Positions 41,601 through 44,600 of a stretch of DNA of 64,000 nucleotides are shown here, one piece after another. The position numbers and the translations under genes are program-made. The notes beneath the pieces were generated by a model that was not told the DNA's origin, made no database searches, and saw only the letters and a program-made list of their open reading frames with translations. The stretch's first letter is position 1. The number at the start of each line of letters is the position of its first letter. The DNA comes from Sacculina carcini (taxonomy: Eukaryota; Arthropoda; Thecostraca; Sacculinidae). The DNA is taken from contig OU696574.1 in NCBI GenBank assembly GCA_916048095.2, forward strand, positions 1,954,501 through 2,018,500, read 5' to 3'.

Positions 41601-44600
41601 TGGTGCGCCGAGCAGATGGAGGTCGGAGAGCGGCGTGACTGTGGCCGAGGCAAGCAGTGATGTGGCGGCCACGTTCGAGTCTTCGGTATCTGCTGGTCGT
41701 GTGTCAGTGGCTGGACCCAGACTGACAACTTCGCACTTGCCGGCGTTTAGCTCGAGGCCGATGCTGCCGAGGGCCGGGATCAGGCGGCTGACGTCTGCAA
41801 GCACCACTTCCCTGGGGCCTGCCAGTGTGGCGTCGTCCAGGTACCACAGGTTCAATGGCGACTGGAGAGACTGGGCCACTGGGTCGACGGCGAGGGCGAA
41901 CAAGATTGGCCCGAGCGGGTCTCCCTGCTGTACACCGCGACAGGACCAGATTCGCGTGGTGCCGTGGTACAGTGGGGTTGGCTGGCCGTACGCCTGCTGG
42001 ACGAGCGGCAATGCTGCGGGGAAACGACGGGCGACTTCGTCGAGCATCGCGCGCCGACTGATGGTGTTGTTGTTGTTGTTGTTCCTCAGGTTGTCTGGCC
42101 GAGCAACCTCGAGCTCCTGAGGAAAGACACGGCACCGACCGGGTTGTTCCACAGGTCTCTGATAGATGTAATTTTGTGTTGGCGTCTGAGTTGTGTGTGT
42201 GCTGTGCAGTGTTGCATGATGTGTGTGATGGTGTGTGGTGCTGAATTGCAATCTGGACAGGTGTCGTCGATTGAGTCATTCAACCTTTTCTGATATGACA
42301 GAAGGGCAGGATGATGACCGCATCTCAACCTGGCCAGATGCACTTTGTATTCCCTTGTGAGTGTGTTTTCTGATTTGTGTATGTGCGGTGGGTGTCTTTG
42401 TAGGAGTGTATTGTGTTGTAGTGAGTGTATGACTTTCCGTGCGATCTCTGTGTGTATGTGTTTCTTGATTGATGTGCGTGGGGGAGCTGGTGGAAGTGAT
42501 GTGAAAATTTGTCTGTGGTAAAGTGTGCTTGGTGTTGTTTTTATGTTTCTGTCTGTGTTGTCTTGTGTTGTGAGGTGATGTAGTGGATGTGCTGTGTTGG
42601 TGACTGCTGCTGCGAATGTTTGTGTGCCTCTCATGTCTAGGTGGTGTGTCAGATTGAGTATTTTGGTTTCGTGATGAAGGTGGTCTGCTGGTGTGGTAGC
42701 TGTGCATCCTGTGATTGTTCTGAGTGCGGTGTTTTGAAGTGTTTGAAGTGTGTTTGTGTGGCGTGTTGCGAGATTGCTAGCCCATGCGGGGCTAGCATAT
42801 GATGGTGGTGATGATGGTGGTGGTGATAGCATATGATGGCGACTGATGGTGTTGAAGGCGTTGGTCACATCCAGCTTCAGCAGAATGTGACCATGCCGAC
42901 CGTTAGCCTCATTGACGAAACGCGCGTGGCGTGCACGGCCGCTTCGCAGCCCAGCTTGCACCCCACTCCGAGCTGAACGGGTCGCAACTGCTGTGCGACT
43001 GCGCTCGTCATTTTGCCAGCGATCAGTTTGCTGGCGAGGCGCCGCAAAACACTGCCGACGGCTACTGGGCGCAGCCCGCCGGACTTCTTGCGCAATGCGA
43101 TTAGTCGCGCACTGTAGAATGCGCCGAGCACGAAGTCCGGGATGCGACCCTCTGCACAACAGTTGCACAGCTGCGTCAGTGCCTTCAGCAGCTGGGCACC
43201 CGCTTCAGCCGTCTGTGGCGCGATGAGCTGGCGGAGATGTAGCGGCCGTATTCCGTCCAGTCCTCCCGATGAGCCTTTGGGCATCGAGTGCACGACGGAG
43301 CGGATCTCGTGCTCCTCAAAAATCGGCAGTGTTTCGGCGTCATGCATCTTCAGCTGCTCGTCCGGCAATGCAGGCGGGTGCTTGCGCTCGAGCTCGGCGC
43401 TCACTGCCTCGTCGTCCCCGGCCAAGCAGTCGCTGGATGTCAGCAGGCGGAGAGTTGCACCAATGTCTACATCGGCGCACTTGGCTCTGACGCCGCGGGA
43501 TCTGGCCTCGTTTTCGTCGTGCTGTGATCGCACTCGGTTTTGTGTGCCCCGCTTCTTCCTTGCTGCTGCGTCGGAGCTGATCGGACCCGTCCAGGCGTAT
43601 GACAGCAGCTTCCACCAGGCCGAGAGGGAGCGCTGTTCCAGAGCCGCCGTGATGTGCTGTGCGAGGTCGGCTGCCACCCGATGACGCAGAGCACGTGGGA
43701 CATGCTGACGCACTCGGCGTTGCTGTCTGAGCTCGGCAAGCGCCGCAGCCAGGTCTGTCGGAGTATTGGTGTTACCGTCGGCTGGCGGGTCCACGTCGCC
43801 ATCCGCACCGCGGCTCTGCATGCACGCACCGCAATGCCACACCGACAAGACGTCGGCTTGTGCCCGGGTGATTCCCACGCAAGTGAGGTGGAATAAGCGC
43901 TCACATTGCGCGCAGGAAATCACCCGCCTTCTGCTGTTGATAGTGCCGCAGTGATGACACGGCTGCGCGGGGTCGGATCCCGTGTCTGCGCTGGGGGCCC
44001 GCTCGGCCTGAATTCCGACAGCTTGGCAACGGGCTAGACGGCATGGCGCACACGATCTGTCGTGCGGAGTGATACGGCAGCTGCCTCCACGGTCGCACTG
44101 TCTCTCCCGCTCGCCGCTGTCCTGGTGTCGCCGCCAGAATATGTCGCATGCTCTGCAGAGAGCAACATCATTGTGCGTTTGTCGCACTCCGTTTGTGGAT
44201 TCACAAACCGCGCACGACAAACGATGTAGCTCTTGCGTCATTGCAGGCAAGTATGGAAAAAGATAAGTCTGGTCAGTCCAATGTCAACACGAGCGCGCCA
44301 ACACCGGAACTATGTGTGTGTGTGTGTGTATTTGTGTTTGTGTTAGGTGTGTATGTTTGAGTGTATAGCTGTGCTGTGTATTCCATATGCATGTGTGTCT
44401 GCGTGTGTGTTTGTGCGTTTGTACGCATGCAAATGTGTGCATGTCTCTTTCGTAATTGTGTCCGTGTGTGTGTGTTTTATGTTTGTGTGTTGACATTTTG
44501 TGTAGGGAAATTGCGTTGGTTCGACAATTGCGCGCTTGCGTGCCGAGCATGCGCTATTACTATCTCGGCTACTACATTCACAACTGTGCGAAAATGCGCT

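Follow-up and report, generated by a model that had tools for sequence, protein, structure and literature searches.

The DNA-binding domain (DBD) of nuclear receptors, linked to animal signalling genes, is one of the most thoroughly studied domains of this type. R2 and other long interspersed nuclear elements (LINEs) with a restriction-like endonuclease (RLE) encode N-terminal zinc fingers, a reverse transcriptase (RT), a CCHC knuckle and the endonuclease in one open reading frame (ORF), and they insert at preferred sites. In the available text of PMC5678591, the knuckle spacing of RLE elements is given as CX2-3CX7-8HX4C. Among the RLE elements, Togen is specific for (TG)n and some HERO families target microsatellites (PMC4640811, in the part available), while PHD fingers occur in CR1/L2 elements, mostly in ORF1 and in some cases at the 5′ end of either ORF2 or a single ORF (according to the accessible part of PMC4120745). 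Here we analyze a stretch of 64,000 nt from Sacculina carcini (GCA_916048095.2, contig OU696574.1, positions 1,954,501-2,018,500 of the forward strand), hereafter called the window. It contains a copy of a retrotransposon without long terminal repeats (non-LTR) in which a nuclear-receptor-type DBD, matched by the Pfam model zf-C4, is found at the N-terminus, followed by a PHD finger and an RT.

The ORF of the element lies on the minus strand, starts with an ATG at 44241 and encodes 454 residues. Both the zf-C4 match (31.1 bits, cut-off 21.1, E 3.4e-7) and the PHD match (28.4 bits, cut-off 24, E 1.6e-6) exceed the Pfam cut-offs, and the finger scanned alone reached 36.7 bits for zf-C4 (E 5.8e-9). 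Its cysteines are located at residues 10, 13, 29, 32, 49, 55, 64, 67, and 72, and the nine-cysteine spacing of 2, 15, 2, 16, 5, 8, 2, and 4 given in an earlier note on this DNA agrees exactly with the translation. The same note had placed a receptor-type DBD in frame with a PHD finger and an RT at the N-terminus of a non-LTR element, an arrangement now confirmed by Pfam and by the other copies described below, and had named similarity to zf-C4 above background as the point to be checked. Besides the Pfam cut-offs, shuffled sequences establish this similarity. When all cysteines were kept fixed and the remaining residues were mixed, none of nine shuffles gave a zf-C4 match, and cysteine spacing alone is therefore ruled out as the cause of the match. 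Among PDB sequences, all 19 matches of the window finger at E <= 0.001 were receptor DBDs, the best being estrogen-related receptors (2.6e-6), and the best match improved to 1.6e-7 with a two-sequence profile of the window and the metagenomic protein P0001. The best receptor shifts with the query, from estrogen-related receptors for the window to the vitamin D receptor for a profile of six families and the androgen receptor for family H. The parts of the element and the adjoining repeats in the window are the following:

44313..44330: (AC)n tract on the 5′ side of the element, minus strand (read from the sequence)
42880..44241: 5′ part of the element ORF, comprising zf-C4, PHD, N-terminal extension and RT start, minus strand; ends at the frame shift near 42.9 kb
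44008..44217: zf-C4, nuclear-receptor-type double zinc finger, minus strand (ORF residues 9-78; Pfam PF00105, PDB receptor DBDs)
43822..43959: PHD finger, minus strand (ORF residues 95-140)
42070..42839 (about): inserted stretch splitting the RT region, minus strand (from BLASTN alignment of the copies L026 and L027 to the window)
40374..42275: 3′ open frame from the RT core to the C-terminus, minus strand; its first part is inserted DNA
41721..41957: reverse transcriptase core, minus strand (Pfam RVT_1, E 2.5e-7)
40854..40904: CCHC knuckle C-x1-C-x8-H-x4-C, minus strand (coordinates via the L026 alignment; columns invariant in six families)
40656..40832: restriction-like endonuclease motifs (RH..., EPRGL, RRPDG, WDxT), minus strand (coordinates via the L026 alignment; invariant columns)
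39770..40314: (AC)n tract, minus strand (TG on the plus strand), adjoining the A-rich 3′ end of the element

The window copy is disrupted twice, by the frame shift near 42.9 kb and by the insertion, and is a dead, degraded member of a group of several families. The pieces flanking the insertion overlap by 15 bases of L026, as would a target-site duplication, and by eye the inserted DNA resembles a 3′ end from a different LINE. An ORF at 42089-43204 gave a weak zf-RVT match (E 0.3) under the Pfam cut-off. At its A-rich 3′ end the element passes directly into (AC)n, and (AC)n is also present upstream of its 5′ end.

In order to find further copies, the assembly (264 Mb, 43 contigs) was searched with the zf-C4 profile. 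This gave at least 147 matches (the best 150 of 213 candidates being scored), some of which are host receptors, including the six strongest (L001-L006). A hand count found an open frame of at least 1000 aa in 39 of these matches; one of the 39 matches profile positions 2-25 only, and two of the three frames longer than 1800 aa contain N stretches. We selected 40 loci for long frames or middling scores, a non-random sample taken entirely from the zf-C4 search, and read in addition 11 short pieces and one extra 6-kb stretch. The earlier note had proposed a search for copies with the same domain order, and in these loci the zinc-finger N-terminus of some family was identified by tblastn in 40 of 40. 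Copies lacking the cysteine-rich N-terminus, which the note had named as a sign of a chance join, did not occur among them. The endonuclease C-terminus was located downstream in 34 loci, those without it being L022 (which contains N), L029, L031, L033, L036, and L039. By a strict pattern, 15 of the 40 loci hold an uninterrupted frame from the finger past the RT to the endonuclease motifs.

The copies fall into at least eight families with zf-C4, PHD, and RT, here called A (L009), B (L010), C (L011), D (L013), E (L020), F (L026, to which the window copy belongs), G (L032), and H (L060). All eight representatives exceed the zf-C4 cut-off (28.4 to 62.7 bits), seven exceed that for PHD (family C has 21.2 bits, below 24), and RVT_1 is over its cut-off in all six full-length representatives. 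Of the six full-length families, the five others share 52-64% identity with F, and the finger cysteines as well as R38, R62, and R68 are invariant across all six. We take these arginines to be the counterparts of the DNA-contacting arginines in receptor DBDs. The closest pairs within families are 99.7% (E) and 99.6% (F) identical over 2.8 kb, and the group has therefore moved recently. Pooled over 28 family pairs, the ratio of nonsynonymous to synonymous differences per site (pN/pS) was 0.52 for the finger, 0.46 for PHD, 0.47 for the RT extension, and 0.66 for the spacer. Since pS of 0.75-0.79 across families means that synonymous sites are saturated, these ratios are weak evidence of constraint. 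The corresponding substitution ratio (dN/dS) of the finger was finite in five of eight printed pairs (0.17, 0.21, 0.28, 0.33, and 0.52). Family H, to which L049-L054, L057, L059, and L060 belong, showed PHD and RT in L060 only, and an H-type finger was found in eight of the 11 short pieces, two of these being incomplete. The locus L029 (G000:C22:6176000-6185999) contains four family A N-termini (finger, PHD, and RT start) within 10 kb, arranged as two pairs about 2.2 kb apart. It is a local tandem duplication of the 5′ parts of the element that may be developing into a host gene.

By anatomy and family the element is almost certainly an RLE-type (R2-like) non-LTR retrotransposon with zf-C4, PHD, RT, CCHC knuckle, and a putative endonuclease in a single protein. 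With the RT profile, R2 proteins were the best PDB matches (6e-18). The motifs RRPDG and WDxT, which would belong to a PD-(D/E)XK restriction-like endonuclease, are conserved in the six full-length families. The alignment to the R2 endonuclease is weak (3.7 bits), and the knuckle of all six families has a single residue between the first two cysteines. R2-type N-terminal zinc fingers and Myb were not matched; in the eight representatives Pfam (E up to 0.01) gives only zf-C4 and PHD-type models before the RT.

The flanks of the copies were compared with respect to simple repeats. Sense (AC)n was observed within 250 bp after 28 of 31 3′ ends, the exceptions being L009, L014, and L030; this count excludes 11 of the 40 loci, in which the end motif is missing or replaced by N, and includes L060 and the window, the latter value entered by hand. 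At the 5′ ends, (AC)n was present in 26 of 35 cases and GT in one of 35; here L021, L029, L039, L040, L041, and L048 are excluded, the window is included, and the ends, some of them approximate, are defined as the start of homology between copies. Both ends are bordered by (AC)n in 22 of 28 copies and neither end in one (L030). A first count with a slightly narrower pattern found (AC)n in sense orientation, or a repeat very similar to it, in the 250 bp following 28 of 32 3′ ends, with a GT run also present in six of the 32 stretches, partly in the 3′ untranslated part. The control rates for 250-bp stretches were 6.5% in the window outside 38-45 kb and 24% at eight host receptor loci. From these counts the group favours (AC)n in a fixed orientation, and we regard this insertion preference as highly probable. 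The earlier suggestion of a hormone-response-like target is unsupported, because the copies are located mostly in (AC)n and because the P-box is unlike that of the host receptors and variable among families. Flanks mostly of (AC)n likewise gave no sign of insertion in 28S rDNA. In L026 (after the stop), L015, and L016, the 3′ tails consist of A-runs interrupted by single C (aaaaaaaacaaaaaaac) that grade into (AC)n, as though the tail merged with the repeat at the target in the course of priming. At L014, L019, L025, and L038, part of another element of the group is located near the first.

Outside the genome, the 454-residue ORF was compared with 5.8 billion proteins, which yielded at least 40 matches. 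Among the matches listed, zf-C4 was found only in P0001, a metagenomic protein of 249 aa with the same domain order as the window (zf-C4 38.3 bits, then PHD 31.4 bits) and 57% identity over 49% of the ORF. Identical residues are frequent in the finger (34 of 69 aligned), the PHD finger (34 of 46), and the N-terminal RT extension (43 of 60), and few in the spacer (4 of 16) and the linker after PHD (10 of 25). In 15 aligned members, PHD is present in seven, zf-C4 in two, and RT in 11. The unnamed database proteins P0002-P0005 and P0008 share the RT and its N-terminal extension at 35-41% identity and have PHD before the RT; they differ by being without zf-C4, and P0002 has two PHD-like fingers. 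The more distant P0018 and P0024 carry a C2H2-type finger at the N-terminus. P0009 and P0011 have another cysteine-rich N-terminus (CCRC...CSCVK...C..C......C), which suggests that N-terminal modules may have been repeatedly exchanged in the group. Protein searches with the N-terminal part gave none of 56 candidates at E <= 0.001, and a second search (16 candidates) returned P0001 itself only. No relative of the element was among seven pattern matches in IMG/VR, and NCBIfam gave no match for the window proteins or P0001, and for P0002 a weak group II RT match below cut-off.

A tree of the RT region after PHD was built from 41 rows (families A-H, the window, P0001, and P0002-P0032, of which G, H, the window, and P0001 are partial), with the eight weakest matches, P0033-P0040, omitted. 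The ten zf-C4 rows form one side of a branch with support 100/99.7, with P0002-P0005 and P0008, which carry PHD, among the neighbouring rows. As elements A-H were all found through zf-C4, later losses of zf-C4 would be invisible in this tree. Family H branches first within the zf-C4 clade and has the most receptor-like finger, with 62.7 bits for zf-C4 (4.4e-17) and a match to the androgen receptor DBD (4.2e-15) that spans both modules. The spacing before the seventh cysteine is nine in H and in receptors and eight in A-G and P0001, and of all the families H may be the nearest to the capture. In a tree built from the fingers alone, the elements are separated from seven host receptors at 92/96, with long branches. 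As the zf-C4 elements group in a single clade next to relatives that do not carry the module, the best reading is the one proposed in the earlier note, capture of the finger from a receptor gene. On these comparisons it is very likely that the receptor DBD was captured a single time by an ancestor already carrying PHD. The simplest account would be one gain in front of the existing PHD finger, followed by divergence into A-H.

Overall, we give a probability of about 0.72 to the reading in which the finger is the captured DNA-binding part of an R2-like, microsatellite-targeting machine. The elements insert in (AC)n microsatellites, in the orientation in which their sense strand continues into (AC)n, and insertion would proceed by target-primed reverse transcription. 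By analogy with the zinc fingers and Myb of R2, zf-C4 would be a DNA-binding part helping to hold RT and endonuclease on the target DNA, and the PHD finger could tether the protein to histone H3 tails. That the finger binds target DNA is probable. We propose only tentatively that receptor finger and PHD form a targeting head, in which the finger would engage (AC)n and position the endonuclease and RT, with the P-box diversified later. It is somewhat more doubtful that zf-C4 reads the AC sequence itself. A P-box that differs among families while the (AC)n target is constant weighs against a targeting role of the finger. Fold comparison of the finger models gave GATA and uS14 and no receptor. 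These models are of low confidence, and their comparison is not taken as evidence either way; for the PHD finger the PHD fold was recovered.

The alternative that survives best, although we consider it unlikely, retains the same anatomy and has zf-C4 bind the element RNA or proteins, while the endonuclease and pairing of the A-rich tail or of a nicked (GT)n primer would set the choice of (AC)n. The arginines expected at the DNA in receptor DBDs, invariant in the families compared, speak against such a role, while the variable P-box at a constant target, the A-rich tails grading into AC at 3′ ends, and the use of microsatellites by some HERO and Togen families, which are not known from the available part of PMC4640811 to carry zf-C4, would agree with it.

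It is far less probable that the finger is an ancient zinc module whose receptor-like pattern arose by convergence, or that it derives from GATA or another treble-clef finger. Apart from the fold comparison, this would explain the runner-up Pfam match of the finger alone, a GATA model below cut-off (E 0.012), and the single GATA-3 chain (E 4e-4) among the best 60 PDB chains with the two-sequence profile. It is opposed by zf-C4 matches over cut-off in all eight families, by the receptor match of family H over both modules, and by the fixed-cysteine shuffles. It is highly improbable that the loci are host genes, with receptor paralogues beside RT pseudogenes instead of mobile elements. Ordinary receptor genes do appear in the same genome match list; however, the single frames from zf-C4 to the endonuclease motifs, the dispersed near-identical copies, and their A-rich tails in AC tracts are those of mobile elements, and no receptor ligand-binding domain was matched by Pfam in the eight representatives (six full length, G and H as N-terminal frames only). 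The same result led us to reject ligand control of the element. A chance join or assembly artefact at the window locus, for which the frame shift and insertion might speak, is refuted by the intact ORFs, by P0001, which comes from a separate data set, and by the 40 other loci that share this N-terminus.

In the window, the element is located antisense between two exons (about 39600-39770 and 44506-44920) of what is presumably an ATE1 (arginyl-tRNA-protein transferase) gene. Two long frames on the minus strand, 15597-17534 and 18041-19696, resemble eIF3 subunit L and DET1. Adjoining the element, a frame of 463 aa at 45641-47032 (minus strand) is cytochrome P450-like by eye, and a frame of 1465 aa at 52390-56787 (minus strand) appears by eye to be a Gypsy-like gag-pol with CCHC knuckles, RT, and an integrase-like part. 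A weak RT fragment resembling P0002 (tblastn E 1e-4) at 173-451 on the plus strand is perhaps an old relative of the element.

A receptor DBD kept as the front module in at least eight families would mean that a retrotransposon has captured a transcription-factor domain, contrary to the usual course of domestication. If the receptor finger and PHD do act as the proposed targeting head, a transcription-factor module and a chromatin reader would jointly choose the insertion sites. Targeted DNA insertion is a reason for interest in R2-like machinery, and the group represents a natural head swap to a receptor finger and PHD with a microsatellite target; the site-choosing part and the exchange of DNA-binding heads therefore become testable questions. 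The earlier note knew of no described element with a receptor finger, and we found no precedent: no title or abstract returned by full-text searches of open-access literature, which leave most subscription journals and Repbase outside, describes a receptor DBD in a retrotransposon. "Nuclear receptor" and PHD are absent from the available part of a survey of R2 N-terminal domains (PMC13188248), the available text of PMC12062965 contains none of the relevant terms, and that of PMC4451555 gives only domain counts per genome.

In comparison with the known systems, the element has the general plan of R2 and other RLE LINEs. R2 differs in having other zinc fingers and Myb at the N-terminus and a 28S rDNA target (PMC13188248 and PMC5678591, in their available parts), where zf-C4, PHD, and (AC)n are found here, and the knuckle C-x1-C-x8-H-x4-C departs from the spacing reported for R2/RLE LINEs (PMC5678591, available text). 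HERO and Togen, compared by description only, are alike in their microsatellite targets, and no PHD or receptor finger is mentioned for them in the available part of PMC4640811. CR1/L2 elements share a PHD finger in a LINE but belong to other lineages (Jockey superfamily; PMC4120745, accessible part). With nuclear receptors the element shares the zf-C4 DBD, including all zinc cysteines and the conserved R, G, and CRL...C features, and differs from them in the unmatched ligand-binding domain, a different P-box, and, except in family H, one residue less before the seventh cysteine. Microsatellite-targeting RLE elements and PHD fingers in LINEs were thus already known, and what is new, within the literature searched, is a receptor-type finger in a retrotransposon.
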